The notes beneath the pieces are model-generated. The model made no database searches, was not told the DNA's origin, and was given only the letters and a program-made list of their open reading frames with translations. Below are positions 104-20,443 of a stretch of DNA of 36,883 bases, piece by piece. Made by a program: the position numbers and the translations under genes. Each line of letters starts with the position of its first letter. Position 1 is the stretch's first letter. Source of the DNA: Hahella ganghwensis DSM 17046 (lineage in GTDB: Bacteria; Pseudomonadota; Gammaproteobacteria; Pseudomonadales; Oleiphilaceae); assembly GCF_000376785.1 (NCBI RefSeq), contig NZ_AQXX01000077.1, positions 1-36,883 of the forward strand. Reading direction: 5' to 3'.

Positions 104-1117
104 TCAGTTAATTGTGATGGCGGCTTCCAATCCGATATCTGGAACAGGTCGGCGCTTGTCAGAGTTAAGATCGGGAATTAGTAGTCTGTTTTTGGAGAGG
201 CGTCCGAGGCCTACGACACCTCGGACGGTTAAGATATCAAAGACCCGATATCCAGTAGATCGCAATGCTGCTCCTCTTAAGTGAACAGCATTGCGATCCT
301 GGTTAAGCTTTTCATGAAAACTTGCGAACATCCCCCCAGATCGCAGGGATTGTCTGACTTTGCCCAACACAGTGGGTAGGTCATGAGCGTAGTAGAGCAC
401 CATGGAGGCCCATACCAGGTCATAATCCTCTCCCAGGAAATCCCGGTTCATATCCCCTTCCAGTATTTCAATCCCGGGATGATCAGACACCTGACTTCTG
501 ATTAGCGAAGCGACTCTGGGCAAGTCGAAAATAACGGTTTGAATATCAGGATTGATAGACAGGATATCCAGCGCCAGTTGCTCTGATCCCGCACCCAGAT
601 CCAACATCCGGTTTACATCGGGCCAGTTCGTCAATGACATCAGCACCTCGACGACAATAGGATTCCTGACCGCCACATGAAAGGACCTCAGGCCGTCAAC
701 AACGTTGGACCAGAACTCGGGCTGCGTCATCGTAGCCCCTTGCTTTCCCTGATGCCCCTGAATCAGGAGATCTACAATCTCTGAACCCGTGACATGTTTG
801 ATCTTTCCCAAATGATTCAATAATCCGCACATGGACACATTCGAATCGGAAACCAGCAGGGACCGGTATGAGTCACTTATCTGGTAACGCTCCTGACGCT
901 TGCTGATGAAGCCGATCGACACCATGGCGTTCAGAAAAAGTTCTGTACTTTTCCTGATCAGCTGAAAACGCGAGGCAACCTCCTCTGCTGTGCGAGAAAT
1001 CTGCAGGTAATCAAACAGATTGAGTTTCATGCCGGCAGACAGGAGCTCCCATCGCAAAGGCGCCACCAGAGTGTCAAACAGGAAATATTGTGCTTCATTT
1101 CCGAAGCGAGTCTTCAT
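104..1117 (-). CDS. SAM-dependent methyltransferase, O-methyltransferase family 2-like
   Basis: Predicted cytosolic SAM-dependent methyltransferase of about 337 residues. The N-terminal ~100 residues look like the winged-helix dimerisation domain of family 2 O-methyltransferases (substrate-starvation type segments such as LFDYLQ and YRSLLVS). The Rossmann core follows, with the SAM motif MLDLGAGSEQLALDI near residue 180, the acidic end of beta-2 (VIFDLPRV) and LEGDMNRDF. The start is taken at the second ATG because AAAGG sits about 6 bases before it, whereas it directly touches the first ATG at 1123. It lies 11 bases downstream of the receptor gene and is almost certainly co-transcribed with it. 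As I recall, the PDTC cluster pairs a receptor (pdtK) with a methyltransferase (pdtL). S- or O-methylation of the thiocarboxylate product is therefore a reasonable inference, but the substrate is not visible from sequence. Confidence 0.85.
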   Translation of the reverse strand: MKTRFGNEAQYFLFDTLVAPLRWELLSAGMKLNLFDYLQISRTAEEVASRFQLIRKSTELFLNAMVSIGFISKRQERYQISDSYRSLLVSDSNVSMCGLLNHLGKIKHVTGSEIVDLLIQGHQGKQGATMTQPEFWSNVVDGLRSFHVAVRNPIVVEVLMSLTNWPDVNRMLDLGAGSEQLALDILSINPDIQTVIFDLPRVASLIRSQVSDHPGIEILEGDMNRDFLGEDYDLVWASMVLYYAHDLPTVLGKVRQSLRSGGMFASFHEKLNQDRNAVHLRGAALRSTGYRVFDILTVRGVVGLGRLSKNRLLIPDLNSDKRRPVPDIGLEAAITIN

Positions 1118-1128
1118 TTGCATCCTTT

Positions 1129-3210
1129 CTAGATCCGATATCCGATTAATAGAGAGAGAGTCCTGGGTTGAGAGTCTTCAACAACCGTGCCGGCGGGAGT
1201 GCCCACGGCACGACTGAAAATTTCCCGGTCCAGGATATTGGCCGCAGACAATGTGGCATACACACTGCCTCTGGAATACCTTGCCTCAACATCCACTGTT
1301 GAGTAGTCAGGCTGTTCCAGGGTATTTTGGGAATCAAAATAGAAGCTGTCGCTATAACGTGAAGATATCCTCAACAGCCAGTTGGGTGAAAATTGGTAAT
1401 TCAGGTTCACGGATGCGCTCAATTGAGGAGAATACGGCAGGTCATTGCCCCCAAGGTCATTCACTATCCATTGCCCGTTCTCCTCCCGACGGGTCTCAAA
1501 CTCGGTCAACTCAGCTTCCTGCCACCCCAGCACACCATTAAGGCTGAGTTTATCGGTCAGCGCCGCATCGATCCGGTATTCCAGGCCAAAAATTTCCGCC
1601 TTGCCGGCATTTGAAATTCTCTGTGTATTTCCAGGCAGAGGATCGACAACCTGCTTGTCCCTGATCAAGTTGTAAAAAAAGACCAACTCTCCAGCAATTT
1701 TCTGATGCCAGTATGTATCCTGAAGCCCTATCTCCAGCGAATAGCTGTCTTCAGCTCCAAAGACGAAAGTTTCAGCATCGGTAGCGGATGTATGGTTGTA
1801 TCCTCCCGGCTGGTACCCTTTTGAGATAGCGGCATAAATGATTGTCTCCGGTGCCGCCTGGTATATTGCCGACAGCTTCGGCAGAAACGCCGTGTAGTCC
1901 TGGACCTGTACATATTGGCCAGACAGAGCTCCGGTAATTATCTGATAACCCTTTTTCCTGACTTGTTCTATTCGAATCCCCGGAACCAGAGCAAAGCGAT
2001 CGCTGAAGGAGATGTCAGCCTCTCCAAATACTGCAGCGCCAGTTTGATCGATTCGGGTCTCCCGGTGGGCGCTTGCCATCCCGATGGTAAAATTGCTGTC
2101 GGTATCCTCCAGGTAGAAATAACTTCCTACCGACCAGTCAAGGTCACCATCAAGTGCGGTAGACAGCACCCTGAACTCTTGGGAAATCATCCTGTCTCGT
2201 AACAGAGACTCCGTGGCGGGGGTCACCATGGGGCCGGTATCCAGGTCCATGGTAAAATCCTGTTCGTATCTGGTGACACCTGTAATTGACACAAACTCAA
2301 CATCGTTGGCGCTGTGGTCTACCCTTAGAGAATGGATCGAGGTGGTTCTGCGATCCTCGGTTTGAGTATCGTAATTGACGACAAACCTCTCGGTGGCAAA
2401 CGGTCCATCAAGATATCTCATGTAGGCTCGCCCTCCCTGACTATCCTCCCAGTGACTGCGAAACTGGATATCGGTGTTGTCGCTAGGGTAGTACGACCAC
2501 CCACCCGAAAACGACGTTCTGTCCCGACGATTTTGCTGATTACCGGCATCCGCCAGGTTGTAATAGGCACTTTCACTATCTTCATGCCTTAATGCCAGAG
2601 AAAAGGACGCCGGGGTTTCTGAAACCGGACCGGACACCCCTCCTGTCAGTGCCTGGGTAGGCTCCCAATCACGACCTCCGTCTGCGATAAGATAGGAATA
2701 ACTTCCCCAGTGCATATTCTCAATAGATGGAAATGGAGAGCTCACGAGAACACGGCCCGCCTGGGCATTACGGCCCTGGGGGTCTCCCTTCGCGCCTGTG
2801 ACCACGTCAATTGTTTCTATATTCATCCAATATGGTGCCTGAGTTGCTCCAAGCGGCAGTGCTACATCATCCACCACATAGCCCACTGGATCCTGCAATC
2901 CTCCATCAACCGAGGTCATCCCTCTGATAACCACTCGTGTCTGAACAGAAGATTGCTCTACTGCAACGTTGGGAATTTGCTCTGTCACACTACTGATATT
3001 ATCAGCCTGTGGACCTTGTTGATTTGAGCGCTTGATTGATCTGTTAAAGAAAGAGGTCCTATGACCTGAAGAGGTGGAAGTCGCTTCAGTGGAGATCTCG
3101 TTTAACTGATATATTTGGGAGTCTTCCGACTCTGATCTTGTTACTGAGGCGTATCCCAACGATAGACTTGCTCCTGAGCAGATAAAAACAACCAATAACC
3201 GACACTTCAT
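1129..3210 (-). CDS. TonB-dependent outer-membrane receptor (metallophore uptake)
   Basis: About 693 residues, consistent with a plug plus 22-strand barrel. The start at the ATG at 3210 gives a Sec signal peptide (MKCRLL followed by a hydrophobic stretch ending near GYA); an upstream TTG at 3222 has no usable ribosome site. A TonB-box-like segment (YQLNEISTEA) follows. Next comes the plug, with ISSVTEQIPNVAV, RVVIRGM and YVVDDVALPLG, and IETIDVVTGAKGDPQGRN as the barrel-entry motif. The C-terminus has alternating aromatic beta-strands and ends LSLLIGYRI, lacking the usual terminal Phe. Known family role: energy-dependent import of ferric siderophores and similar chelates. Placed between the sulfur-incorporation operon and a methyltransferase, it is likely the receptor for the cluster's own product, like PdtK. 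It is divergently transcribed from the moeZ-like gene, so they probably share control. Confidence 0.9.
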   Translation of the reverse strand: MKCRLLVVFICSGASLSLGYASVTRSESEDSQIYQLNEISTEATSTSSGHRTSFFNRSIKRSNQQGPQADNISSVTEQIPNVAVEQSSVQTRVVIRGMTSVDGGLQDPVGYVVDDVALPLGATQAPYWMNIETIDVVTGAKGDPQGRNAQAGRVLVSSPFPSIENMHWGSYSYLIADGGRDWEPTQALTGGVSGPVSETPASFSLALRHEDSESAYYNLADAGNQQNRRDRTSFSGGWSYYPSDNTDIQFRSHWEDSQGGRAYMRYLDGPFATERFVVNYDTQTEDRRTTSIHSLRVDHSANDVEFVSITGVTRYEQDFTMDLDTGPMVTPATESLLRDRMISQEFRVLSTALDGDLDWSVGSYFYLEDTDSNFTIGMASAHRETRIDQTGAAVFGEADISFSDRFALVPGIRIEQVRKKGYQIITGALSGQYVQVQDYTAFLPKLSAIYQAAPETIIYAAISKGYQPGGYNHTSATDAETFVFGAEDSYSLEIGLQDTYWHQKIAGELVFFYNLIRDKQVVDPLPGNTQRISNAGKAEIFGLEYRIDAALTDKLSLNGVLGWQEAELTEFETRREENGQWIVNDLGGNDLPYSPQLSASVNLNYQFSPNWLLRISSRYSDSFYFDSQNTLEQPDYSTVDVEARYSRGSVYATLSAANILDREIFSRAVGTPAGTVVEDSQPRTLSLLIGYRI

Positions 3211-3523
3211 ACCTGCGGGCAATCCCTAAGACTTCGATGCACACTGTTCACCTGTTTTTCATTTCGTTGCCTGCTTCATATCAATAGACCTGCTTATAGG
3301 TTTTGTTAGAAACCGGAACACATTCTTACGCTCCCCCATACAATAGGTTGATCCGCTTCAGACTCCTATCAAAACAAGAACAAGCAGATATCAATCTGCG
3401 AGCACCACAGGAAACTATCGTCTGTTCGCCATATGACAGAATCGCGAACCTCTATTTATATCGCACAACGACAAAAAACGGTTTGATAGTCACGATTCGA
3501 TAGACACAGCAAAGGAATATGTG
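3211..3523. promoter_or_regulatory. Divergent regulatory region between receptor and sulfur-transfer operon
   Basis: No coding sequence is supported here. Visible elements are: a direct repeat CCTGCTT at 3270-3276 and 3289-3295 (19-base period); a short inverted repeat GCAGAT-atca-ATCTGC at 3384-3399; and a direct repeat GATAGTCAC/GATAGACAC at 3485-3493 and 3499-3507, just before the right-hand start. Direct repeats about two helical turns apart would suit an AraC-type activator such as the one encoded at 20 kb, but the assignment is a guess. No convincing Fur box was found here. Confidence 0.4.
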
Positions 3524-4693
3524 ATGACATTACCTCCTCTAGTCAGCCCAGACGCTGAACTCAGCAAGCAGGAGATGGAAAGGTACAGCCGCCATCTTCT
3601 TCTCCCTGATATAGGGCTGGACGGACAAAAACGACTGAAAAACAGCAAAGTACTGATCATTGGTGCTGGTGGACTCGGGTCTCCGGCGTTGCTATATCTG
3701 GCTGCCGCCGGCATTGGCACACTCGGCATTGTAGACTTTGATACAGTGGACGCCTCTAACCTTCAGCGTCAGGTAATCCATGGTCAGTCTGACGTTGGCC
3801 GCAAGAAACTCGATAGCGCCAGAGCCACGATTCAGGAAATCAATCCATTCGTTCATGTTGAAATGCATGAAGCGCGTCTCGATACCTCCAACGCACTTGA
3901 AATTATCTCCGGTTACGACCTTATTCTGGATGGCACCGATAACTTTGCTACCCGCTATCTGGTCAATGACGCCTGCGTTCTCGCCAAAAAGCCCTATGTC
4001 TGGGGATCAATTTTCCGGTTCGAAGGACAAGCCTCTGTATTCTGGGAGGATGCACCTGGTGATATAGGCCTCAATTATCGAGACCTCTACCCGGAGCCAC
4101 CACCTCCAGAGCACGCGCCATCCTGTTCTGAAGGAGGAGTTCTGGGTGTACTTTGCGCCGCCATTGGATCCATCATGGCGACCGAAGCCATTAAACTCCT
4201 GACCGGCATTGGCTCTCCTTTGCTCGGAAGGTTAATGGTCTATGATGCCCTGGACATGACCTATCGTGTTCTACCCATCCGACGCAATCCGGACCGGCAG
4301 CCCATTACTGAACTCAGTGATTACGAGTATTTTTGCGGCTTGACCAAACCTGCCACACCACAAAAAGATGTTCCCACCATCAGTCCACGGGAACTTCATG
4401 ACATCCGTCAATCAGGCCAGTCACATTTATTGATAGATGTCAGAGAGCAGAGAGAACGGGATATCTGCTGCATCGAAGGAGCCATTCATATACCCAAAAA
4501 TGACATCCTGGCCGGGCGCGGACTGGAGTCTCTGGATAAGAATTCGCTTATTATCTTGCATTGTAAAGCTGGAAGCCGGTCAAAACAGGCGCTAAATGCA
4601 CTGGAAGAACAGGGTTTCACCAATTTGCAGAATCTACATGGAGGCATTCTTGCCTGGATCAAAGAAGTGGATTCTGAGCTCCCAACCTATTAA
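3524..4693 (+). CDS. MoeZ-type sulfur-carrier adenylyltransferase/sulfurtransferase (ThiF domain + rhodanese)
   Basis: E1-like enzyme that adenylates the C-terminal Gly of a small sulfur carrier and converts it to a thiocarboxylate. Residues ~15-250 are a ThiF/MoeB domain: GAGGLGSPALLYLAAAGIG (ATP-binding), DFDTVDASNLQRQ and DGTDNFATRYLVND. The C-terminal ~110 residues are a rhodanese domain with active-site loop HCKAGSRS (Cys near residue 347). The MoeB zinc-ligand CxxC pairs are absent: the first is replaced by NYRDLYPEP and the second by RRNPDRQP, as in M. tuberculosis MoeZ. An ATG at 3524 is preceded by AAAGGAA at good spacing; a GTG at 3521 would add one residue. It is the first gene of moeZ-mec-thiS, with 30 bases to the JAMM gene. 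It corresponds to QbsC/PdtF-type enzymes of thiocarboxylate metallophore clusters. Confidence 0.93.
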   Translation: MTLPPLVSPDAELSKQEMERYSRHLLLPDIGLDGQKRLKNSKVLIIGAGGLGSPALLYLAAAGIGTLGIVDFDTVDASNLQRQVIHGQSDVGRKKLDSARATIQEINPFVHVEMHEARLDTSNALEIISGYDLILDGTDNFATRYLVNDACVLAKKPYVWGSIFRFEGQASVFWEDAPGDIGLNYRDLYPEPPPPEHAPSCSEGGVLGVLCAAIGSIMATEAIKLLTGIGSPLLGRLMVYDALDMTYRVLPIRRNPDRQPITELSDYEYFCGLTKPATPQKDVPTISPRELHDIRQSGQSHLLIDVREQRERDICCIEGAIHIPKNDILAGRGLESLDKNSLIILHCKAGSRSKQALNALEEQGFTNLQNLHGGILAWIKEVDSELPTY

Positions 4694-4723
4694 ACCCAAT
4701 GATGTCACCAGGAGTTTAATGCC

Positions 4724-5167
4724 ATGTTAACCATTTTGGATACTCATGTTGAAGCTATACTGGAGCAGGCATTTGCTGAACACCCCGTTGAAGCTTGTGG
4801 TTTGATTCTAGGAAAGAAAGGACAACGAACGCCGCATAGATTGGTGCCCATGGAAAACGCTGCCAGATCGGAGACTTTCTTCCAGTTTGACCCCAAGCAA
4901 CAATTCAAAGTATGGGAGGAAATGGATGACCAGGAGGAAGTCCCCATGGTTTTCTATCATTCCCATACCGGTTCGCGGGCTTTCCCCAGCAAAGAGGATA
5001 TTCATCATGCCTGGGATCCGGAAGCCCATTACGTGCTGGTGTCGACCGCCGAGGGCAGACCAGGCGAGATACGCAGTTACCGCATAATAAACGACAAAGC
5101 TATTGAAGAGACGATTCGAGTAATACATCAATCGAACGATGCACCAGGAGAAAATCATGCCGGTTAA
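4724..5167 (+). CDS. JAMM/MPN+ zinc metallopeptidase, Mec+ (CysO-cysteine peptidase) family
   Basis: 147-residue single-domain JAMM protease. The full metal motif HxHx7SxxD is visible as HSHTGSRAFPSKED, with His79, His81, Ser89 and Asp92. An upstream Glu in the HPVEACGLILG segment is the expected catalytic general base. Family knowledge: Mec+ releases cysteine from the CysO-Cys adduct, and QbsD trims the QbsE C-terminus. The carrier encoded next already ends in GG, so C-terminal trimming should not be needed here and adduct cleavage is more likely. RBS AGGAG lies about 9 bases before the ATG. It overlaps the carrier gene by 11 bases, implying translational coupling. PdtG-like by position and family. 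Confidence 0.92.
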   Translation: MLTILDTHVEAILEQAFAEHPVEACGLILGKKGQRTPHRLVPMENAARSETFFQFDPKQQFKVWEEMDDQEEVPMVFYHSHTGSRAFPSKEDIHHAWDPEAHYVLVSTAEGRPGEIRSYRIINDKAIEETIRVIHQSNDAPGENHAG

Positions 5168-5429
5168 AGTTAAGATTCCCACCATACTACGCACCCTGAC
5201 CGATGAACAAAAAGAGGTTGTTTCCGAGGGCGCAACCATCAGAGAAGTCATAGAAAGTCTGGAGTCGCAGTATCCGGGAATCAGGGAGCGCTTACTGAAA
5301 AACGATGAAGTTCATAAGTTCATGAACATCTACGTCAATGAAGACGACATTCGTTTCAAGGATCAGCTGGCCACGACGGTTCAGCAAAGCGATACTATTA
5401 CCATTCTACCGGCAGTTGCCGGGGGGTAA
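5157..5429 (+). CDS. ThiS/MoaD/CysO-type sulfur-carrier protein
   Basis: 90-residue ubiquitin-fold carrier ending in ILPAVAGG. The C-terminal GlyGly is the site of adenylation and thiocarboxylation. Diagnostic segments include MPVKVKIPTILR, IREVIESLESQYPGIRERL, NIYVNEDDIRF and SDTITILPAVAGG, closest to CysO/PdtH-like carriers. The ATG at 5157 is chosen because CAGGAG precedes it by 6 bases; an upstream in-frame ATG at 5139 has no such site and would add six residues. It overlaps the end of the JAMM gene. Role: sulfur donor for converting an activated acyl group to a thiocarboxylate, together with the ligase and CoA-transferase-like protein downstream. A role in cysteine synthesis, as for CysO, is an alternative, but no CysM-type gene is adjacent. 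Confidence 0.92.
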   Translation: MPVKVKIPTILRTLTDEQKEVVSEGATIREVIESLESQYPGIRERLLKNDEVHKFMNIYVNEDDIRFKDQLATTVQQSDTITILPAVAGG

Positions 5430-5490
5430 CCCTTGCCGCTGCTGAGCATGAAACCAGCAGTAATTACTGAACACAATCCACTCAATGTCC

Positions 5491-5549
5491 TGCCAGGATG
5501 ATCCTCCTGGCATCTCTGCAGAAGGCGATCGGTTACAACCTTTCGCCTT
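5491..5549 (+). terminator. Tandem dyads after the sulfur-carrier gene
   Basis: Two hairpins follow the thiS-like stop by about 60 bases: TGCCAGGA (5491-5498) with TCCTGGCA (5505-5512), and AAGGCGA (5522-5528) with TCGCCTT (5543-5549). The second is followed by a pyrimidine-rich TCTTCCC. They may partly terminate or process the first transcript before the 390-base gap to the CoA-transferase-like gene. There is no long T-run, so termination is uncertain. No gene is supported in 5430-5819. Confidence 0.4.
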
Positions 5550-5785
5550 TCTTCCCACCAGGCCACCTACATCAGTCAAACCATTCCAACACAGCAAACA
5601 TCGCATGTAAGGAACATGCCTTTTGTCTGCGCCACTTTTTGCACTGCATATCCGTGAACAGGCGACAACCCAAACGTTTCTCAAAGATCTTTAAGCCATC
5701 ATCAATCTATTTCTATGAATACCTATTCGGCAAATGACATTGTAACGATACTCAAATGAAAGCCTTTGTAAGTTTCCTCCATTAA

Positions 5786-5804
5786 GGTATCCGCAACGGA
5801 TACC
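5786..5804. promoter_or_regulatory. Perfect inverted repeat just upstream of the CoA-transferase-like gene
   Basis: GGTATCCG-CAA-CGGATACC is a perfect 8-bp dyad with a 3-base centre. It ends 15 bases before the ATG at 5820 and immediately before the likely ribosome site GGTGAG (5808-5813). It could be a repressor operator or an mRNA hairpin limiting translation. No regulator was matched to it. Confidence 0.5.
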
Positions 5805-5819
5805 AATGGTGAGTTAATT

Positions 5820-7727
5820 ATGGAAACGGATAGCTTTCTTGAAGGTTGCACAATCGTTGGCAACTTTAAAAAGGTTCCTGATCACCTGAGAACTGTGACA
5901 GATACGTTGCAGTTCCAATGTCAAGCATTAGGAATTCAAGTCGAGAACAATCTTGATATGGACGTGGGAGCGCACTTTCCCTTCCAGTTCATTTCTCCGG
6001 ATTCAAGCATTCAGGAGAATCAATTTTCATTCTGGTCAGATAACCCTTTAAGACAGGGCTCAGAAGCCGTCATCCAGGCTGCAACCGGGATGATGTCCGT
6101 ACACGGACGCTCTATCGGCGGTATCGCCCCACTGAATCTTCCCTATCTTTCCACCGCCTCGGCAGTCATCACGCTGCTGGGATGCCTGGCGACCGCTATC
6201 GGAAAGAAGCGAGGCTTAGACGTCAGCGGATTTCAGTCGTCAATGGTTTCAACAGGACTCCTGTGTGTAGGGCAATACCTTGCCGGTGCGACAGTTGAAG
6301 AAGGGGCGGAAAATATCCCTCCGGGCACACATGATCAGCCTCAGCGACCTCCTTTTCGTTCTGCGGATGGTGAAGTGTTTGAACTTGAAACACTCTCCCC
6401 AGAACCCTGGCGCCGGTTCTGGGCAGCTCTTGGCATCACTCAGGAGGATGCAGGACGAGGCTGGCAGTCATTTCTTCAGCGTTACGCTAAAGCCACCTCT
6501 GCGTTGCCTGAATCACTGATGACTGCGATTTCATCCCATAACTTCAAGAATATTGTATCTCTTGGTGAAGTTACGGGGGTTTCGGTATGCCGTCAGCGTA
6601 CACTGCAGGATCGCGCCTCTGACAAGGATATCCCGTTACTATTGACGCAGGGCCCCTGGCAACTTCAACCGGAATCAGACCACTCAGAAACTGCTTCCCG
6701 TATAGATTCCACAAAGCCAGTTCCTCAACTTCAATCGACCTCTGATCGTCAACGACCTTTAACGGGGTTCACGGTCATTGAATCCTGCCGGCGCATTCAG
6801 GGCCCCATTGCAGGTCACCTGCTCGCCCTGCTCGGCGCAAGAGTGATTCGTATCGAACCACCTGGCGGAGATCCACTAAGAGGCATGCCTCCTTTTGCAG
6901 GAGATTGCTCAGCACGGTTTGATGCCCTTAATCACCTGAAAGAAGTCAGGGAAATCGATATCAAGTCTCCGGAAGGGCGCGCGGAGGTGATGTCATTGGT
7001 GTCAGAGGCAGACGTTTTTATCCATAACTGGGCACCAGGCAAAGCTGAACAATTACAGCTGGATCACGAGCACCTTAAGTCAGTGAACCCGGATATCGTA
7101 TACACCTACGCCGGTGGCTGGGGAATCATGGATGGTGTTGTGCAATGTCCCGGCACTGACTTCACAGTACAGGCCTACTCTGGAGTGGCCGAGCTGATTT
7201 CCGGTAAAAAGGCAGATGGCGGCGGCACTCTGTTTACCGCTCTGGATGTTCTGGGCGGAATCATTGCGGCCCAGGGAAGTGTATTGGGTCTGTTCAGGAA
7301 GATTTTCCACCGCCAGGGCTGCCGTGTAGATACATCGCTACTGGGAGGTGCGGCACTACTTACTCACTCTCATCTTCAGGCAATTCGATCCCACAATCCC
7401 AGGAAGGACTCTATTCAGGTTTCGCTATTCCGCACCTGCAGGGGTCACCTGGCTTTAAGCCTGAATCAGCTAAAGGATTTGATCCCGCTCCTGGCTGAGC
7501 TTGCATTGACAGAACAGGACCTGGATCAATCCAACTTGAATCAAAAGCTGGAATCGGCGCTGCAGACCAGAACCGCACAAGAGTGGGTTCCAATCTTCGA
7601 AAAAATCGGCATTCCCTGCAGTGAAGTTGTGGAGTCTCTCAGTGAACTGCCGGAGCAGGAACGCTTCAAGTCTAACCTGGAACGCTTAACTTATTCACGT
7701 GTTGCTACGCCATGGAGGTTCGCATGA
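5820..7727 (+). CDS. Family III CoA-transferase-like protein (CaiB/BaiF), tandem with degenerate N-terminal half
   Basis: 635 residues, about one and a half times a normal CaiB protein. The C-terminal ~370 residues form a recognisable CaiB domain: LTGFTVIESCRRIQGPIAGHLL, GARVIRIEPPGGDPLRG, FIHNWAPGKAEQL, and the catalytic-Asp segment GTDFTVQAYSG (Asp447). The N-terminal ~290 residues look like a second CaiB copy lacking its first nucleotide-fold segment. In that copy the catalytic position reads GSEAVIQAATG, with Glu82 in place of Asp. In established thioacid cassettes (PtmU4 in thioplatensimycin; PdtI in PDTC, from memory) a type III CoA-transferase-like enzyme delivers sulfur from the carrier to an acyl thioester or adenylate, and that is the inferred role here. 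It overlaps the ligase gene by ATGA. Confidence 0.85.
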   Translation: METDSFLEGCTIVGNFKKVPDHLRTVTDTLQFQCQALGIQVENNLDMDVGAHFPFQFISPDSSIQENQFSFWSDNPLRQGSEAVIQAATGMMSVHGRSIGGIAPLNLPYLSTASAVITLLGCLATAIGKKRGLDVSGFQSSMVSTGLLCVGQYLAGATVEEGAENIPPGTHDQPQRPPFRSADGEVFELETLSPEPWRRFWAALGITQEDAGRGWQSFLQRYAKATSALPESLMTAISSHNFKNIVSLGEVTGVSVCRQRTLQDRASDKDIPLLLTQGPWQLQPESDHSETASRIDSTKPVPQLQSTSDRQRPLTGFTVIESCRRIQGPIAGHLLALLGARVIRIEPPGGDPLRGMPPFAGDCSARFDALNHLKEVREIDIKSPEGRAEVMSLVSEADVFIHNWAPGKAEQLQLDHEHLKSVNPDIVYTYAGGWGIMDGVVQCPGTDFTVQAYSGVAELISGKKADGGGTLFTALDVLGGIIAAQGSVLGLFRKIFHRQGCRVDTSLLGGAALLTHSHLQAIRSHNPRKDSIQVSLFRTCRGHLALSLNQLKDLIPLLAELALTEQDLDQSNLNQKLESALQTRTAQEWVPIFEKIGIPCSEVVESLSELPEQERFKSNLERLTYSRVATPWRFA

Positions 7728-14276: not shown

Positions 14277-14292
14277 TTTAGGGATTAATAAA

Positions 14293-16797
14293 ATGAAATT
14301 TGGATTTATCGCTCACCCCACTTCGGTTGCATTGAAACGTCATGTAAAGCTGATTGATCTGGCCAACCGGAATTTTGACGAACAGAGCGAGGGTTATCAC
14401 AAGGATTACTGGCAGTGGCAAAACCTGGTGCCGTTCACGACTCTGGATAGTGTTATCAGCAAGGCCGGCTCCAGGTGCAGTGGCATCGTGCACTATATGC
14501 CCCTGACTGCCGAGGAAATGCTGGCGGATCACCGCAACGTCACTAAACGGGTTATTGACGGAATCAATGACCTGCAAAGCCGGGGCGCTGAACTGGTCGG
14601 CCTGGGTGGCTTTACCGGTATTGTCGGAAACCGCGGCCTGCAAACCGCAGAAAAATGTGGCATTCCTATTACCACCGGAAACTCTCTGACCGCATATGCC
14701 GCGCAGAGAAATCTTCTGCAAACCATGGAACGACTTGAGGTATTCCCTCAGGGAACAGAAGTTGCCATTGTCGGTTACCCTGGCTCCATATCCCTTGCCA
14801 TCGCTCAGCTACTGGCTGACAAAGGTTGTCGTCTAACATTGGTTCACCGGGGCAAAAGTGATCCGGAGAAACACCTGAGCTATCTCCCTTCTAAGATGCA
14901 TTCGTCAGTCACTCTCACCAATAACATTGAGGATTGTTACGGCAAAGTGCAATTTTTTGTGGCAGCAACTTCTACCGGAAATGTCATTGATCCGGCCAGG
15001 TTACTCCCCGGCTCTGTTGTGGTGGATGCAGCGCTCCCCAAAGATGTTATGCAAGCCACCCAGCCCCGTAGTGACATTCTGATTATTGATGGAGGACTGA
15101 TATCGGCCGGTCCCGATGTGAGCTTCGGCGAGTCAGCCACCAACTTTGCTCCCAAAATGTTTATGAACGGCTGTCTGGCAGAAACCTTGATTCTTACCCT
15201 GGAGCAACGCCGCGATAACTTCTCGTTAGGTAGAGTGTTGCCCCCAGAACGTGTTCTGGAAATTGGACAACTCGCGGAAAAGCACGGTTTTACCACCGGT
15301 CCGATGGCAACTGACGGTGAACGAATCACCGATACCCACTTCCATGGTCTTTACCAACACCATCGTGAGGTGGCAGTCCCCACCAGCTCATCCGACCAGT
15401 TTCAACGGACTCAGACGCTGGACAGATTCCGCCGTCATATTAATCCGGTCATGGCGGATTTCTACCAGTTCAATCACACCGAAAGAGTTTTCAAACACGG
15501 GAGTGGCTGTCACCTGACGGATATGGATGGCACTACCTATCTTGATTTTGTCGCAGGATACGGTTGCCTTAACACGGGTCACAACCACCCTAAAGTGACC
15601 CAGGCCTTGAAAAATTACCTGGAGGCAGAGCACCCCACGTTCGTACAGTATGTTTCCATGCCCTATCACGCCTCTCTGCTAGCAGAGCGATTGGCGGAAC
15701 TGGCCCCAGGAGACTTGTCCAGGGTATTTCTCAGCAACTCGGGTACTGAAGCGGTTGAGGCGGCCATCAAAATGGCGCTGGCAGCGACAAGGCCCGGTCG
15801 TTTGCTCTATTGCGACAACGGCTATCATGGCAAAACATTGGGAGCCTTATCCATAACCGGCCGCAACAAGCATCGCAAAGCCTTTGAACCTTTGCTACCT
15901 GAATGTCAGGAAATTGCCTTCGGTTCTATCGAAGCTCTGGAAAAGGAATTACAGAGAGGCGATGTTCGCGCATTTATTCTCGAACCTATACAGGGTGAAG
16001 GTGGTGTGGTTCTCCCTCCTGAGGGTTATCTCAAGGAAGTCAGGCGCCTGTGCAGTCTGCATGACGTCATTATGATCCTGGACGAAGTGCAGACCGGACT
16101 GGGTCGAACCGGCAAACTCTTCTGTTGCGAGTGGGAAGACGTCGTTCCCGATATTCTGGTATTGTCCAAGTCGCTGTCCGGCGGAAGCGTTCCGGTCGGA
16201 GCCACAATTTCCAGTCCACAACTCTGGGATAAAGCCTACGGCAGCATGGATCGCTGCATTCTGCACACATCAACTTTTGGAGGCGGCAATCTGGCTGCTG
16301 CAACAGCACTTGCCACCCTGAATGTCATCACCGAAGAAAAACTCGCTGACAACGCCATGGCAATCGGCAAACAACTTCAGGTCGCACTGGAGGAAATTGC
16401 CAACCAATATCCTTTTATCAAATCGGTGAGAGGTAAAGGACTGATGCTGGCGATAGAGTTTTCTCAGTCTTTCAAGGGCAGTATCAATGCCACTGTTCAG
16501 GAGCTCGCTCATCGCTTCCCCTGGGATCCACAGGGTACATACCGGATGCTGTCGGATAACGCCAAGTATCACATGCTGACGGCCATCGACGAGCTTGAAT
16601 CCAGTATGGAGGATATGTTTGTTCTTCGATTCGTGACGAAATTATCACAGGAACACAATATTCTAACTTTCCTGACCGCCAATAATAGCCGCGTGATGCG
16701 TATCCAACCCCCATTGGTGCTTAACCAGCAGGAGGCATCCAGATTTATCTCGTGCTTTGACGCGGTTTGCCGAGATATGTCCACCTTCATGGATTAG
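14293..16797 (+). CDS. Acyl-thioester reductase (AAR-like) fused to class III aminotransferase, PigE-like
   Basis: 834 residues with two enzymes. Residues ~1-370 resemble cyanobacterial long-chain acyl-ACP reductase: N-terminal MKFGFIAHPTS, GGFTGIVGNRGL, TTGNSLTAYAA, a Rossmann loop VAIVGYPGSISLAIAQLL, and a Cys in FMNGCLAETLIL that falls at residue 294, the position of the catalytic Cys known in the Synechococcus enzyme. Residues ~395-834 form a class III PLP aminotransferase: GHNHPKV, SNSGTEAVEAAIKMA, LDEVQTGLGRTGK (Asp597) and the Schiff-base Lys626 in LSKSLSGGSVPVG. It should reduce an acyl-CoA or acyl-ACP to an aldehyde and transaminate it. PigE has the same two-function layout (from memory). 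It follows the ThDP gene after 16 bases, supporting a shared pathway giving an amino-ketone or 1-pyrroline. Confidence 0.88.
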   Translation: MKFGFIAHPTSVALKRHVKLIDLANRNFDEQSEGYHKDYWQWQNLVPFTTLDSVISKAGSRCSGIVHYMPLTAEEMLADHRNVTKRVIDGINDLQSRGAELVGLGGFTGIVGNRGLQTAEKCGIPITTGNSLTAYAAQRNLLQTMERLEVFPQGTEVAIVGYPGSISLAIAQLLADKGCRLTLVHRGKSDPEKHLSYLPSKMHSSVTLTNNIEDCYGKVQFFVAATSTGNVIDPARLLPGSVVVDAALPKDVMQATQPRSDILIIDGGLISAGPDVSFGESATNFAPKMFMNGCLAETLILTLEQRRDNFSLGRVLPPERVLEIGQLAEKHGFTTGPMATDGERITDTHFHGLYQHHREVAVPTSSSDQFQRTQTLDRFRRHINPVMADFYQFNHTERVFKHGSGCHLTDMDGTTYLDFVAGYGCLNTGHNHPKVTQALKNYLEAEHPTFVQYVSMPYHASLLAERLAELAPGDLSRVFLSNSGTEAVEAAIKMALAATRPGRLLYCDNGYHGKTLGALSITGRNKHRKAFEPLLPECQEIAFGSIEALEKELQRGDVRAFILEPIQGEGGVVLPPEGYLKEVRRLCSLHDVIMILDEVQTGLGRTGKLFCCEWEDVVPDILVLSKSLSGGSVPVGATISSPQLWDKAYGSMDRCILHTSTFGGGNLAAATALATLNVITEEKLADNAMAIGKQLQVALEEIANQYPFIKSVRGKGLMLAIEFSQSFKGSINATVQELAHRFPWDPQGTYRMLSDNAKYHMLTAIDELESSMEDMFVLRFVTKLSQEHNILTFLTANNSRVMRIQPPLVLNQQEASRFISCFDAVCRDMSTFMD

Positions 16798-16843
16798 TAA
16801 AAAGCCAGCGACTAAACCAATGACTAAGAAACAAGCGGTATGG

Positions 16844-16875
16844 GCCTGCTGACATCATCTGAAACGTCAACAGGC
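16844..16875 (+). other. Imperfect hairpin between aminotransferase fusion and acyl-CoA dehydrogenase genes
   Basis: GCCTGCTGAC (16844-16853) pairs with GTCAACAGGC (16866-16875) at 9 of 10 positions, within the 113-base gap. There is no T-run. It may be a transcript-processing or weak attenuation element, and the downstream gene could be read from its own promoter. Confidence 0.3.
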
Positions 16876-16910
16876 TCTAAGGATAGAAAATTCTATTTAA
16901 GGATCACGCA

Positions 16911-18077
16911 ATGCCAACATTGACACCACAACAGGAACTACTGATTCAGAAAGCCCGAGACTTCGTACAAACTGAATTACTGCCTCTGGAAGCGCAAGTT
17001 GAGAAAGATGGAGGACTCAGTCCGGAAATATCAGCACGGATTACACGAAAGTCCCGGGAAATTGGGTTGTTTGCTTCCAATATTGATGAACGCTTTGGCG
17101 GCGGAGGCTTGAGTGCCCTCGATAATGTGCTGGTACAGGAGCAGCTTGGTGCAACCAAGGAAATCCTCGCCCGTCGCGCAGCCGGGAATATATACGAATG
17201 CCTTATTGAAGGTACCGTACATCAGATTGAAAGCTTTCTGATCCCCAGCATCAGGGGTGAACGCTTTTCTGCATTGGCAGTTTCCGAACCTGAAGCCGGG
17301 TCTGACGCGGCGTCAATTCAAACCCGGGCTGAAAAGACGCAAACCGGTTGGATTCTGCATGGCAAAAAACACTTTATCAGCGATGCTGAAAACTGTGACT
17401 ATTTTATCGTCGCGGCAGTAACCGCGCCAAACCTCGGGCCTCGTGGTATTTCGTTATTTCTGGTTGAAAAGGATATGAAAGGTTTCTCCCTGGGCAAACG
17501 TTTCAACATGCTCGGATTCAAGGGCACCAGTCACTGCGAATTGATTTTTGATAACATTGTTCTGGGACAGGATGCGCTACTGGGACAGGAAAACGAAGGA
17601 TTTAGAATGCTCGGTGATACACTGGGCAAAGCGCGCCTGGCCAAAGTTGGAGCACGAGCTATCGGCAAATGCCAGAGGCTGTTACACCTGATGAGGGACC
17701 ATGCCCGGGATCGCCAGCAGTTTGGTAAAGCGATCATTGATTATGGCCCCATTAATCAAATGATTGCAGACAGTGCTATTGAAATTGCGGCTGCAAGGGC
17801 TTTGGTTCTCCAGACTGCCAGAGATATCGATGCCGGGATGAATTGCCGGGAAGCCATCTCTCAGGTGAAGGTTCTCACTACTGAAACCCTGGGACGGGTT
17901 GCCGATAGAGCAGTCCAGGTTTTCGGAGCCAGAGGCTGTCATGACGATCATGTGATAGAAAGCTTTTATCGTGACGCCAGGTTGTATCGCATTATTGATG
18001 GAACATCAGAAATTCACAGAAACATCATAGTCAAAGAGCACAAGAAACCCGGCACCCTGTGTCCGGTAGCCTGTTAG
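16911..18077 (+). CDS. Acyl-CoA dehydrogenase family flavoprotein
   Basis: 388 residues, the usual ACAD length, with FAD-binding signatures ALAVSEPEAGSDAASIQTRA, a middle beta-domain (GWILHGKKHFISDAENCDYFIV) and the C-terminal four-helix domain (RQQFGKAIIDYGPINQMIADSAIEIAAARALV, QVFGARGCHDDHVIESFYRDARLYRIIDGTSEIHR). In short- and medium-chain enzymes the catalytic base is the Glu of YEGT; the equivalent position here reads IIDGT, with Asp. Family role: alpha,beta-desaturation of an acyl thioester, or of prolyl-carrier in PigA-type members. In this cluster it could supply the enoyl thioester used by the ThDP and reductase-aminotransferase proteins. It is the last gene of the rightward run, and a strong hairpin follows the stop. 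Confidence 0.88.
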   Translation: MPTLTPQQELLIQKARDFVQTELLPLEAQVEKDGGLSPEISARITRKSREIGLFASNIDERFGGGGLSALDNVLVQEQLGATKEILARRAAGNIYECLIEGTVHQIESFLIPSIRGERFSALAVSEPEAGSDAASIQTRAEKTQTGWILHGKKHFISDAENCDYFIVAAVTAPNLGPRGISLFLVEKDMKGFSLGKRFNMLGFKGTSHCELIFDNIVLGQDALLGQENEGFRMLGDTLGKARLAKVGARAIGKCQRLLHLMRDHARDRQQFGKAIIDYGPINQMIADSAIEIAAARALVLQTARDIDAGMNCREAISQVKVLTTETLGRVADRAVQVFGARGCHDDHVIESFYRDARLYRIIDGTSEIHRNIIVKEHKKPGTLCPVAC

Positions 18078-18084
18078 AGACACT

Positions 18085-18122
18085 CCTTGTGCAGGGGCTT
18101 CTTACAGCCCCCTGCACAAGGG
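18085..18122. terminator. Strong hairpin terminator between convergent genes
   Basis: CCTTGTGCAGGGGCT (from 18085) pairs with AGCCCCCTGCACAAGG (to 18122), a stem of 13 perfect pairs plus more beyond a single bulge. It lies 8 bases after the acyl-CoA dehydrogenase stop and upstream (on the + strand) of the leftward MFS stop. The position suits a bidirectional terminator, although the T-run is poor. Confidence 0.65.
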
Positions 18123-18156
18123 TTCAAGAATGTTGAAAAATCACAGTTTCTGGCGC

Positions 18157-19392
18157 TTATGCGGATTGTCTTTCTTCGGTATCTGCCAGCTTTGAGCCTT
18201 TAATGACCCAAGCACTAAGAATCAGCATCAAAGCGCCCAGAAGTACAGCAAATACAAATGGCGTTATTACGGAAAACTGGTGAAGAAAGGCACCGGTTAC
18301 CGGTCCCAGAGCCATCCCTATCCCCTTGCTCACGCTATTGATTCCAGCGATTCGACCCTGCGTATCCTCATCGACGGCCAAACTCAGCAGAGCCAGGTTT
18401 CCAGGAAAGACAAGCCCCATTCCCAACCCCAGCAGAATCATTCCGACCAGCAGGACAGGATATGTCGTGGCGGAAGTCGCCGCTGTCAAGGCTATCACCA
18501 TAACCAAACACCCCGAGACCAACAGCCGCTCAGGTGACCATGTCAGCCATCTCATCAACCCGCCCTGAGTTACCACCATGGCTGCCATGCTGGCCATCAT
18601 GACCGCGCCAGTGCCTTTCAGCGCCTCCCCTGCTGAAAAACCGAACTCATCCTGCAACCGGAGTCCGATGACCTGTTGCAGAGTTCCGTAGATTAACAAC
18701 CCGCAAAAGGTGATCAGGAGCATGGGCCACAATTGTTCATAGGGAAGCTTGAAACTTAGATTGGAGGTGATTTCCCCGGGCTCTCTCGACTCAGGTAAAC
18801 GAGAGCATCCCAGCCACCAAATAAATACCAGCACAACGCCCAGCCCTGATAGTCCCAGCACAATGGATACTTGCCCCAGTGCCATCGCAATGGCACCACC
18901 GGCGATAGTTCCGATACCAAATGCAGCTCCCATTTTGCCCATTCCTCTGGCCCTATGTTCGGGTCCGGTGGAGTCAGCCACATAGGCCTGCGCTGCCGGC
19001 ATCACACCGCCAACGCCAATGGCTTGGCTTAACCTCAGGCCGAACAGGATAAAGAACGACATAGAGGCCGTTATCAGGAGATTTTGTCGAAGATAGACCG
19101 CGCCTGCGGCCAGTATCAGAAACAACCCTGTGACCACAATTCCAATGGCTATAATACTTCGCCTCCCGGCGATTTCACTCCGAGCCCCCCAAAAAGGCGC
19201 GGAAGCCATCATTGCAATGGATGACACCGTCAATATGAGACCGGTTTGGATGTCTGTGAGACCGAGGCTTCTGCCAAGGACCGGAAATGCGATCACAAAC
19301 AGGCTGTGTGCAGCACCATTAGCGATCAGAATCAACAGTAATAGTTTCAGACTGTTAGATTTGGGCAATTGCTCAGTTAATACCGTACTCAC
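18157..19392 (-). CDS. MFS drug/metallophore exporter
   Basis: About 411 residues, 12 predicted membrane segments. The MFS signature after helix 2 is GARSEIAGRRSIIAIG, and the motif at helix 5 is IGVGGVMPAAQAYVADST, as in TetA/Bcr-type proton-driven exporters. The start is taken at a GTG (19392) preceded by CAGGAAG with 7-base spacing, inside the last codons of the regulator gene. An ATG at 19416 and longer upstream forms lack such a site. The 20-base overlap with the AraC-type gene implies co-transcription from the Fur-box promoter at 20.4 kb. That fits an iron-regulated exporter for the cluster product. Confidence 0.85.
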   Translation of the reverse strand: MSTVLTEQLPKSNSLKLLLLILIANGAAHSLFVIAFPVLGRSLGLTDIQTGLILTVSSIAMMASAPFWGARSEIAGRRSIIAIGIVVTGLFLILAAGAVYLRQNLLITASMSFFILFGLRLSQAIGVGGVMPAAQAYVADSTGPEHRARGMGKMGAAFGIGTIAGGAIAMALGQVSIVLGLSGLGVVLVFIWWLGCSRLPESREPGEITSNLSFKLPYEQLWPMLLITFCGLLIYGTLQQVIGLRLQDEFGFSAGEALKGTGAVMMASMAAMVVTQGGLMRWLTWSPERLLVSGCLVMVIALTAATSATTYPVLLVGMILLGLGMGLVFPGNLALLSLAVDEDTQGRIAGINSVSKGIGMALGPVTGAFLHQFSVITPFVFAVLLGALMLILSAWVIKGSKLADTEERQSA

Positions 19393-19987
19393 AATATACT
19401 TCCTGTAATTTGTCATTGTTCCTGAATTCAATGGGGGTACAACTATATCGCTGTCGGAAAGTCTGCGCGAAATGGCTTGCACTGCTAAACCCGCACAAGA
19501 ACGCAATATCGGTAATACTCCGCTGACGATCCTTCAACAGTGATCGGGCACGTGCCAATCGATAGTCTCTCAGCCAACTGAATACAGTTTTGCCAAAGGT
19601 TTTCTTAAAGGTCCGATTCAATCGGGTGTGACTCATTCCCACCATTCTTGCCATTTCTTCAAGAGAAGGAATGTTGGCAAGATCTGCCGTTAACAGATGA
19701 ATCACTTTGTCCATTGCAGGACACTTACTCGAGACCAGAGTGTCGTCAAGAGACACTTCAGCCAGGGGTCTCAGCCACCGGGCCAATACATCGAGCGTTC
19801 GCGCTTCCGCACTCAGACAATCCAGTGACGTACTGAAAGGGTTATTCATTAAGTCAGAAATCCAGGATTCATTAGCCTCCTGGTAGCCCAACCGCATAAC
19901 CCAAGGTGTCCGATTGTTGGAAAGGATTCTGGATTGAGGCGGAAATGCAAACCCTATTCGTTTCGTCGCGTATTTGATAACCACCAT
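19373..19987 (-). CDS. AraC-family regulator, C-terminal part (frameshifted gene)
   Basis: Contains the rest of the sensor domain and a C-terminal AraC double helix-turn-helix. The first helix-turn-helix is SLEEMARMVGMSHTRLNRTFKKTFG and the second, with the family signature, is ITDIAFLCGFSSASHFAQTFRQRY. The overall form is like PchR, a siderophore-responsive activator. The upstream reading frame at 19989-20375 carries the missing N-terminal part in another phase, and the two join naturally around SLYSCQ-KNEMVVIKY. This segment could still be translated from its own ATG at 19987, but no good ribosome site is seen. As I recall, the PDTC cluster is controlled by an AraC-type activator (PdtC), so the expected target is this cluster. 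Confidence 0.8.
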   Translation of the reverse strand: MVVIKYATKRIGFAFPPQSRILSNNRTPWVMRLGYQEANESWISDLMNNPFSTSLDCLSAEARTLDVLARWLRPLAEVSLDDTLVSSKCPAMDKVIHLLTADLANIPSLEEMARMVGMSHTRLNRTFKKTFGKTVFSWLRDYRLARARSLLKDRQRSITDIAFLCGFSSASHFAQTFRQRYSCTPIEFRNNDKLQEVYCEYGIN

Positions 19988-19988
19988 T

Positions 19989-20375
19989 TCATTCTTCTGG
20001 TTGGCAGGAGTATAGCGAAACAGTTTGCTCCCGCCAGTTATTTACCAGCCAGACATCCCCAGGTCGAATCAGATAGTTTATTTCATGTTTGGAAAAGCCG
20101 ATTGAACTGACACCTTTGAATCCAAATATCAGTAGCGTAGTGTCTGTCTGATAGCGAATACAGGAGAGATAGTGATCTGAAAAAGTACAACGGCTTCTAG
20201 TAAGCGAGATATCATCACATATCCGACATGTCGTAAATAGTGTATCGCCTATATCGGTCGGGAGGGATGTTTGACACCACTTGCCTTGTACTTCTCCTGT
20301 TTCCAGCAGATAGTTATCAGATACGATGAATGGTACACGATCATTAAGCTCAGGCTTCTTTAAACTAAATTCCAT
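19989..20375 (-). CDS. AraC-family regulator, N-terminal part (frameshifted gene)
   Basis: 128 residues with a PchR-like ligand-sensing segment (HEINYLIRPGDVWLVNN near the end), ending prematurely at SLYSCQPEE. The ribosome site GGAGAAGG lies just before the ATG. A shift of one base near 19990-20000 would continue into the helix-turn-helix frame and give one protein of about 332 residues. Possible explanations are a sequencing error, a recent inactivating indel, or translational frameshifting; the sequence alone does not decide. Expression should be iron-controlled through the adjacent Fur box. Confidence 0.7.
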   Translation of the reverse strand: MEFSLKKPELNDRVPFIVSDNYLLETGEVQGKWCQTSLPTDIGDTLFTTCRICDDISLTRSRCTFSDHYLSCIRYQTDTTLLIFGFKGVSSIGFSKHEINYLIRPGDVWLVNNWREQTVSLYSCQPEE

Positions 20376-20391
20376 TTGCCCTTCTCCATAC

Positions 20392-20443
20392 GCTAATGTG
20401 AATCATTCTCACGTGAGAATACATTAGCTTATTTTTATTTCAA
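20392..20443 (-). promoter_or_regulatory. Promoter with overlapping Fur box upstream of the AraC-type regulator
   Basis: GCTAATGTGAATCATTCTC at 20392-20410 matches the 19-base Fur consensus (on the minus strand, against GATAATGATAATCATTATC) at 14 positions. It lies inside a larger dyad: perfect palindrome ATTCTCACGTGAGAAT at 20405-20420, flanked by GCTAATGT (20392-20399) and ACATTAGC (20421-20428). A sigma-70-like promoter reads leftward: -35 TTGAAA (20438-20443), 16-base spacer, -10 TATTCT (20416-20421). Fur bound here would cover the -10. The rest of the gap to 20805 shows no gene. Confidence 0.75.

Follow-up and report, generated by a model that had tools for sequence, protein, structure and literature searches.

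A probable variant of the PDTC-type thiocarboxylate metallophore cluster with PigD and PigE homologues in Hahella ganghwensis DSM 17046

Gene content of the locus

The window, meaning the whole 36,883-nucleotide stretch analysed here, is the entire contig NZ_AQXX01000077.1 of Hahella ganghwensis DSM 17046, and the contig end lies about 100 bases past a methyltransferase gene. Open reading frames and Pfam/NCBIfam profiles recover all of the genes named in the preliminary description, between positions 104 and 20375. No NRPS, PKS or acyl-carrier gene is found among the cluster ORFs scanned, in agreement with its prediction of a product made without NRPS, PKS or carrier protein.

The thioacid cassette consists of five genes on the forward strand. 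A MoeZ-like E1 protein with a rhodanese domain (3521–4693; PF00899, 1.6e-80; PF00581, 7.3e-17), predicted from its sequence to act in sulfur loading of ThiS, is followed by a JAMM/JAB protease (4724–5167; PF14464, Prok-JAB, 6.8e-27) and a ThiS/MoaD-like sulfur carrier (5157–5429; PF02597, 2.8e-18, scored on the longer ORF 5139–5429). A two-domain type III CoA-transferase homologue of the PtmU4/QbsK/PdtI type, here called CaiB and putatively thioacid-forming (5820–7727; PF02515, 3.9e-64, in two stretches), overlaps by 16 bases an acyl-AMP/CoA ligase of the PdtJ type (7712–9403; PF00501, 2.7e-58). The motif cysteines of the MoeZ-like protein and the H-x-H, S and D of the JAMM motif are conserved in 50 of 50 alignment rows, as is the catalytic-type aspartate D476 in the C-terminal domain of the CoA-transferase (50 of 50 ungapped rows). 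By profile these are five PdtF–J-type genes, and the proposed PDTC-type thiocarboxylate cassette is upheld; in the published account, PdtF–J are identified as E1-rhodanese, JAB, ThiS, CaiB and AMP ligase (PMC1779556).

The window ligase is about 61–65% identical to Pseudomonas family members and 62% identical to the ligase of a Hahella thioacid operon that lacks PigD and PigE, a similar closeness that suggests the same acid substrate. The thioquinolobactin (qbs) cassette also comprises MoeZ, JAMM, ThiS, CaiB and ligase. However, a qbs-like locus (L135, so labelled from its GGCF tail) has no adjacent PigD and PigE, and its ligase and CaiB are 39% and 36% identical to those of the window. According to PMC6006322, QbsD is an example of a capped sulfur carrier that requires JAMM trimming, whereas the window ThiS is uncapped, with an exposed C-terminus ending in AVAGG. 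The thioplatensimycin system described in the same source shares a ligase and a two-domain type III CoA-transferase with a conserved Asp (PtmA3/PtmU4), but it is actinobacterial, its sulfur carriers are encoded elsewhere and its scaffold is another.

At the start of the contig, on the reverse strand, are an O-methyltransferase (104–1123; dimerisation and Methyltransf_2 domains, PF00891, 3e-11) and a TonB-dependent receptor (1129–3222; PF00593, 1.5e-40; PF07715) whose TIGR01783 score of 98 bits does not reach the cut-off of 223.5; the two genes adjoin in locus L108 as well. Downstream of the cassette, the forward strand encodes a first MFS transporter (9481–10701; PF07690, 5e-29), a GH88-fold protein (10692–11813), a PigD homologue (11844–14276), a PigE homologue (14293–16797) and an acyl-CoA dehydrogenase (ACAD; 16911–18077; PF00441, 7.4e-40). 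The cluster genes are nearly contiguous, with overlaps or gaps of at most 30 bases from the first MFS gene through GH88, PigD and PigE. A second MFS transporter (18157–19506; PF07690, 2.9e-45) and an AraC-type regulator are found on the reverse strand. The regulator gene is split over two frames in assembly GCF_000376785.1, with the C-terminal DNA-binding part at 19373–19987 (PF12833, 1.5e-25) and the N-terminal part at 19989–20375, a region reached in another frame when the L012 AraC protein is aligned to the DNA by tblastn. Regulator, receptor and MFS transporter stand beside the cassette as in a pdt-type cluster. No Fur box was found in the window at three or fewer mismatches, and a scan of positions 1–20000 was uninformative for promoters (14 promoter-like sites versus 20.0 expected) and terminators (23 versus 18.9).

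The GH88-fold protein is kept across the family. It has no Pfam match and is weakly similar by sequence to unsaturated glucuronyl hydrolases (phmmer E 1.5e-7), and its predicted model (pLDDT 90) gives a clear fold match to 2fv0, with a TM score of about 0.78. Of D88 and D149, which we take to be the catalytic Asp pair of the Bacillus enzyme, D149 is retained (D169 of the window protein) and D88 is opposite a Ser, in an alignment that is weak.

PigD and PigE homologues and their linkage to the cassette

The PigD homologue, a ThDP enzyme, has no Pfam match and scores 691 bits against the NCBIfam PigD model NF053552, under the equivalog cut-off of 950. It retains the GDGA and Glu motifs, its AlphaFold model resembles ThDP enzymes of the AHAS/pyruvate-oxidase kind, and its first ~160 residues fail to align with prodigiosin PigD. 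The PigE homologue, a thioester reductase fused to a class-III aminotransferase, scores 1395.6 bits against NF053554 (cut-off 850) and matches the solved aminotransferase 4ppm, which we take to be the PigE structure, over its full length (E 7.9e-290). In three scanned relatives PigE scores 1390–1434 bits, and that all stay above the cut-off suggests the same reaction. NCBIfam scores, the 4ppm match and the ThDP fold therefore bear out the original PigD/PigE assignment as one of homology, in a separate clade.

Trees were built from 67 of 126 PigD, 59 of 120 PigE and 36 of 52 CaiB rows, with near-duplicates and short rows omitted. These PigD and PigE homologues form their own clade beside prodigiosin PigD and PigE, and both co-vary with the cassette; the PigD split has 100% SH-aLRT support. 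The prodigiosin PigD that other Hahella genomes carry groups apart from the window PigD, in another clade, and the window PigE lies outside 16 prodigiosin PigE rows, none of them from Hahella. For loci L006, L068 and L081 the label “prodigiosin” denotes tree placement only, no other pig gene being mapped in those stretches. The window thus shares with prodigiosin pigD/pigE (NF053552, NF053554; 4ppm) the same adjacent enzyme pair and motifs, but differs in clade and in a PigD that is under cut-off with a dissimilar N-terminal region. This also shows that the name given by the NCBI PigE model extends to proteins beyond prodigiosin clusters. Among Thioclava pig proteins, assigned by gene order in their cluster, PigB, PigC, PigG, PigH and PigJ have no match in the window, and PigF, PigI and PigA match only the window methyltransferase, ligase and ACAD, at 23–27%. 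No full-length PigC is found in the genome (best match, 69 bits).

The combination was described at first as having no known counterpart, yet it is widespread. The same gene set is found again in Microbulbifer, Xenorhabdus, Photobacterium, Pseudomonas, Stutzerimonas, Advenella and Thauera, and the linkage of the two halves is maintained across several gene orders. A genome scan for PigD, in which a single-protein query gave no match and an alignment query did, yielded 75 loci, 21 with all five cassette genes within the fetched stretch; the scan is incomplete, 7 of 18 PigD-positive Pseudomonas genomes being traceable in its loci and 11 not. Among 298 sampled Pseudomonas genomes (taken, from the numbering, as part of a 398-genome draw), CaiB and PigD are both present in 13, only one in 2 and neither in 283, so that PigD occurs in 13 of 14 genomes with thioacid CaiB and 1 of 284 without. 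The two are adjacent in all 13 genomes having both (divergent in G321), in 4/4 further PigD genomes from the larger draw and in 5/5 opened from the family draw. Across the 23 loci of the co-variation test, PigD and CaiB distances correlate at 0.976, a value reached in none of 2000 permutations. In a class-wide survey CaiB was found at 1e-60 in 0 of 368 other genomes. Plasmid records contain PigD in six cases (three examined, all prodigiosin-type), CaiB in two and MoeZ in five.

Positional correspondence with the PDTC cluster

In published accounts, the PDTC cluster of strain F113 comprises 14 loci, PSF113_2605–2618, with the letter string pdtCKPELMFGHIJON (PMC3570484, PMC7415375). The family-B Pseudomonas order (locus L156), AraC–TBDR–MT–MFS–PigD–PigE–MoeZ–JAMM–ThiS–CaiB–ligase–ACAD–MFS–GH88, likewise has 14 genes and fits this string slot by slot. 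We take pdtC, pdtK and pdtE to be the AraC regulator, TonB receptor and MFS transporter; by gene position, the methyltransferase would then be pdtP, and PigD and PigE pdtL and pdtM. With the same letter assignments, genome G1085 reads AraC (C), MFS (E), F, G, H, I, J, TBDR (K), PigD (L), PigE (M), MFS (N), GH88, ACAD (O) and MT (P), which is alphabetical; the letters of P. stutzeri KC are assumed to run along its sequence. The PDTC cluster already known is very probably one member of the recurring family. The incomplete alignment-based PigD scan returned no locus of F113's species by name.

The Pseudomonas gene count and order equal the F113 string, so that, to judge by position, no slot is left for a dipicolinate synthase, and the earlier idea that PigD and PigE stand in place of dipicolinate-forming genes is not supported. 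Such genes are indeed absent from what was scanned, but the window set is complete relative to its relatives. The window shares with the F113 cluster the five-gene cassette and, by position, AraC, TonB receptor, methyltransferase, MFS, PigD, PigE, ACAD and the other MFS; it differs in gene order, with PigD and PigE after GH88 and the receptor and methyltransferase divergent from MoeZ. Its ACAD, receptor and methyltransferase are only about 22–30% identical to the Pseudomonas type, and the product may therefore differ from PDTC.

Predicted products and competing explanations

The region is probably a variant PDTC-type (pdt) thiocarboxylate metallophore cluster in which PigD and PigE are ordinary members (pdtL/pdtM) rather than a prodigiosin graft; its predicted products are a metallophore of the thiocarboxylate type together with a lipophilic 1-pyrroline. 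The alphabetical order in G1085 adds weight to this reading and removes some from its rivals. MoeZ would load ThiS with sulfur, the ligase and two-domain CoA-transferase would convert a pyridine- or dipicolinate-type acid of primary metabolism to the thioacid, and the methyltransferase may S-methylate it; the MFS proteins would serve export and the TonB receptor recovery of the metal complex, under AraC control. PigD would join a pyruvate-derived acetyl unit to an ordinary fatty acid presented as its 2-enoyl thioester, and PigE would reduce and aminate the result, leading to ring closure to a 5-methyl-4-alkyl-3,4-dihydro-2H-pyrrole.

We infer the identity of these products, and their formation side by side rather than joined, with F113 as a guide. 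F113 is reported to make PDTC derivatives and 3,4-dihydro-5-methyl-4-alkyl-2H-pyrroles as separate compounds, and wheat root extract raises both; the extract altered other F113 metabolites too, which makes the co-induction weak evidence. The masses fit, and 5-methyl-4-alkyl-dihydropyrroles should be what a PigD/PigE pair makes. Three pyrroline-network members left unnamed in that work (compounds 25, 26 and 29) came from each of the four strains tested rather than from F113 alone. This counts against the two-product reading, as does the frame-split regulator. The alkyl-dihydropyrroles of Pseudomonas are an orphan metabolite family reported in 1986. No gene assignment for those of F113 was found in the literature searched, which held few subscription papers; the present cluster may explain them and supplies likely genes. 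The PDTC metallophore system is thus predicted to carry a second, co-inherited product.

A single joint product, in which the PigD/PigE pyrroline forms part of the thiocarboxylate-bearing molecule or is later joined to a pyridine thioacid, is rather unlikely. The near-perfect co-variation and the linkage preserved in several gene orders would fit it, as would Micromonospora L062, where CaiB, ligase, ACAD, PigD (actinobacterial-type) and PigE lie side by side. All four Hahella genomes with the PigDE-less thioacid operon carry PigD elsewhere, a hint that the halves need each other. However, all 7 of 7 genomes of L027–L032 and L037 hold PigD but give no thioacid CaiB match at E 1e-20, genome G205 has PigD and PigE without CaiB (E 1e-60), and a mono-alkyl pyrroline offers the ligase no obvious carboxylate. 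The thiocarboxylate-bearing pyrroline first proposed is thus possible but not the simplest outcome, since the F113 compounds are separate and PigD/PigE persist without the cassette in several genomes.

It is improbable that PigD and PigE, using another 2-oxo acid or acceptor, build a new chelator core that replaces dipicolinate, giving neither PDTC nor an alkyl-pyrroline. The fully supported PigD split, the unalignable N-terminal residues and the unlike ACAD and receptor point that way, whereas the PigE scores suggest an unchanged reaction and the ligase identities an unchanged acid. Chance abutment of two unrelated clusters is very improbable: the halves do occur apart, but recurrence in many genera and gene orders, co-occurrence in Pseudomonas, co-variation and tight gene spacing lead us to reject it. 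A relocated or decaying prodigiosin fragment is hardly tenable, for although PigE scores as prodigiosin PigE and other Hahella genomes have prodigiosin PigD, it is contradicted by both trees and by the pig genes missing from the window and, for PigC, genome-wide.

Returning to the variant pdt cluster with two products, we tentatively suggest that PDTC-type clusters of proteobacteria and some actinobacteria might be two-headed, the thiocarboxylate metallophore and lipophilic 1-pyrroline being joined or associating as ions (a long-chain pyrrolinium cation paired with the anionic metal-PDTC complex) to act as a membrane-active or membrane-bound metal carrier. If so, these clusters would encode a membrane metal carrier of an undescribed kind.

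Gene content and recurrence of the cluster

The window spans an entire contig of 36,883 bases from a 6.56-Mb genome. Ten genes on the plus strand (3521–18077) encode, in order, MoeZ, JAMM, ThiS, CaiB (a two-domain type III CoA-transferase), a ligase, the transporter MFS1, a GH88-like protein, PigD-like and PigE-like proteins, and an acyl-CoA dehydrogenase (ACAD). The gaps between them do not exceed 113 bases, with the sole exception of the 390 bases separating ThiS and CaiB. A divergent receptor and methyltransferase (MT) lie on the left, and a convergent MFS gene and AraC gene on the right. The AraC regulator (19373–20375) occupies two frames, compared with intact relatives in Microbulbifer (L012) and Photobacterium (L036), either because the gene is genuinely interrupted or because of an indel introduced in assembly. 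A mechanosensitive-channel gene (26250–27552) is likewise split into two overlapping ORFs, the C-terminal part matching PF00924 and the other part without a Pfam match; together, the two split genes may indicate indels in the contig. At 28078–32363, a gene for a ferritin-like protein (PF12902) precedes LodA-like and LodB-like quinoprotein genes, which at 256 and 225 bits each score below their NCBIfam cut-offs.

A genome scan with the PigD alignment, an incomplete survey, yielded 75 loci, 30 of which match the window PigD end to end or up to a cut contig edge; those of the 30 that were placed in the PigD tree fall within the clade of the window protein. The preliminary description of this gene set holds as an observation, while its proposal of a unique graft does not, since the complete MoeZ, JAMM, ThiS, CaiB and ligase cassette is found in the fetched stretch of 21 of the 30 loci. 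Two more (L024 and L025) are short MAG contigs with CaiB on another contig of the same genome, and seven belong to genomes in which no thioacid CaiB reached 1e-20. Most of the remaining 45 loci represent prodigiosin clusters or PigD loci of Actinobacteria; also among the 45 are L068 and L081, where no other pig gene was detected, and L076, from Minicystis.

Architecture A, the gene order of the window, is shared by loci from Microbulbifer (L012), Xenorhabdus (L026) and Photobacterium (L036). Architecture B, found in Pseudomonas, runs AraC, TonB-dependent receptor, MT, MFS, PigD, PigE, MoeZ, JAMM, ThiS, CaiB, ligase, ACAD, MFS and GH88. Stutzerimonas, Thauera and Advenella have the genes of architecture B reordered or in part missing. 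At one locus (L174, genome G1186, 7805–10993) PigD and PigE map only piecewise with the rest of the cluster present, and it looks interrupted.

Proposed correspondence with the pdt genes

We take pdtC to encode the AraC regulator, pdtK the receptor and pdtE the permease of the pyridine-2,6-dithiocarboxylic acid (PDTC) cluster. Two papers give the cluster of Pseudomonas strain F113 as pdtCKPELMFGHIJON, PSF113_2605–2618, or 13 letters for 14 loci (PMC7415375, PMC3570484). A third paper describes pdtF to pdtJ as E1-rhodanese, JAB, ThiS, CaiB and AMP ligase, in that order, and includes among the carriers “Hche”, taken here for Hahella chejuensis (PMC1779556). The F113 string fits architecture B slot by slot, so that by position pdtP would be the MT, pdtL PigD, pdtM PigE, pdtO the ACAD and pdtN the MFS, with GH88 as the fourteenth, unlettered locus. 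Under the same letters, the cluster of genome G1085 from the Pseudomonadaceae draw begins with C (a divergent AraC gene) and a short MT-like fragment, continues as E, F, G, H, I, J, K, L, M, N and GH88, and ends with O then P on the other strand, an overall alphabetical order; its ACAD is closer to the window type than to the Pseudomonas type. Stutzerimonas kirkiae has E to M in sequence. The letters were reportedly first assigned to the cluster of P. stutzeri KC, where they presumably follow the sequence; given that origin, L and M have to be PigD and PigE for the two independent orders to agree. Most probably, the window cluster represents a variant form of the PDTC type.

Linkage, phylogeny and conserved residues

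Among 298 Pseudomonas genomes (thresholds 1e-60 for CaiB and 1e-100 for PigD), CaiB and PigD each occur in 14; 13 genomes have both, two a single one and 283 neither (Fisher 1e-20, relatedness ignored). The two lie together in 13/13 genomes with both, in a divergent arrangement in G321. In a draw of 398 Pseudomonas genomes, the cassette stands beside PigD in 17 of 18 PigD-positive genomes, the exception being G205. A separate family-wide draw contained PigD in 11 of 398 genomes, with the cassette alongside in all five opened. Distances over 23 loci correlate with those of CaiB at 0.976 for PigD and 0.970 for PigE, values that physical linkage alone would also give.

In the PigD tree, built by a quick method and carrying a long-branch warning between its two sides, a fully supported branch separates a cassette clade (37 rows), in which the sister of the window protein is from Microbulbifer, from the prodigiosin and actinobacterial proteins (30 rows). 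The PigE tree, from a set without Hahella prodigiosin PigE, is concordant. The NCBIfam PigE equivalog NF053554 accepts PigE from the non-prodigiosin clusters L015, L012 and L027 at 1390–1434 bits, and automatic names will therefore mislead.

Judged from sequence, the cluster enzymes look intact, with key motif residues conserved. Counted over aligned rows, in which some genomes appear twice, the JAMM motif residues and the MoeZ cysteines are each kept in 50/50, the CaiB Asp in 50/50 ungapped (52 in all), the PigD Glu and GDGA motifs in 124/124, the PigE reductase Cys in 114/114 ungapped, and the PigE aminotransferase Lys in 91 of the 92 reaching that position (116 in all). These residues are presumed to be catalytic. 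For the CoA-transferase, one paper names the Asp as the relevant residue (PMC6006322). The predicted PigD model (pLDDT 80.7) resembles acetohydroxyacid synthase and pyruvate oxidase in fold, with TMt reaching 0.76. That of the GH88-like protein (pLDDT 90) matches unsaturated glucuronyl hydrolase (UGL; TM 0.78); one of the two UGL Asp residues is aligned and kept, and the other is Ser.

One product or two

We favor a thiocarboxylate metallophore and a separate 1-pyrroline over a joint product. Two reports describe from F113 cultures both PDTC derivatives, at m/z 198 and 228, and 3,4-dihydro-5-methyl-4-alkyl or alkenyl-2H-pyrroles, all raised by wheat root extract (PMC7415375, PMC7911646). By mass calculation, the reported values fit bis-S-methyl PDTC, a monothio monomethyl derivative and an acetylated C11 pyrroline, the first two being assignments proposed here rather than in print. 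Of the four strains studied, F113, the one credited with pdt genes, was the sole source of the three characterized pyrrolines (28, 30 and 32), but network members 25, 26 and 29, not identified there by name, came from all four (PMC7415375). These pyrrolines have been known since 1986 from P. putida DSM 3601 (as cited in PMC7415375), a strain paired with PDTC in the title of a 2007 paper. Their C11, C13:1 and C15:1 side chains are those that PigD and PigE would yield from C14, C16:1 and C18:1 acids. In the accessible literature on these pyrrolines and by the 1986 authors, no gene assignment was found; the useful novelty lies in connecting pdt clusters with PigD/PigE and these orphan alkyl-pyrrolines in a form open to testing.

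The two halves also occur apart. PigD and PigE are found without the cassette in Brenneria, Lonsdalea, Pelomonas, Mitsuaria and Pseudomonas G205. Photorhabdus (L028, L037) has a cassette-clade PigD, no cassette and apparently no PigE nearby, the sole PigE-like gene within 10 kb being a distant aminotransferase (28–29%) on the opposite strand. Conversely, the cassette lacks adjacent PigD/PigE in Hahella G001, G002, G005 and G006, and in Pseudomonas at a second locus of G146 and in G149. Several of these cases count against two products. All four of these Hahella genomes carry a prodigiosin-type PigD, from which a pyrroline could come; the two Hahella genomes without PigD, G003 and G004, also lack the thioacid operon; and in G149, which has no PigD, CaiB and the ligase are more distant (39% and 44%). 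The sulfur carriers have an exposed GG end at 33/33 PigD/PigE-linked loci read, twice-seen genomes counted once, and are capped at 6/6 unlinked loci read (L099–L102, L135 and L136). In Hahella G001, G006, G005 and G002 (L099–L102, respectively) the thioacid operon is compact (MoeZ-JAMM-ThiS-CaiB-ligase-ACAD-MFS-GH88), with a carrier capped as GGCGDRL...; the stretches fetched contained no PigD/PigE, receptor or MT match.

Related combinations are found in Actinobacteria. PDTC has been isolated from a marine Streptomyces (PMC7374359). Micromonospora L062 (4663–14307) has CaiB, ligase, ACAD, PigD and PigE in a row, and Streptomyces caatingaensis L059 (3–14533) has matches to CaiB, ligase, ACAD, GH88 and MFS about 4 kb from PigD/PigE. 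Both PigD proteins belong to the actinobacterial clade, so the link between cassette and PigD/PigE may have arisen twice, the two halves perhaps having come together independently in this group.
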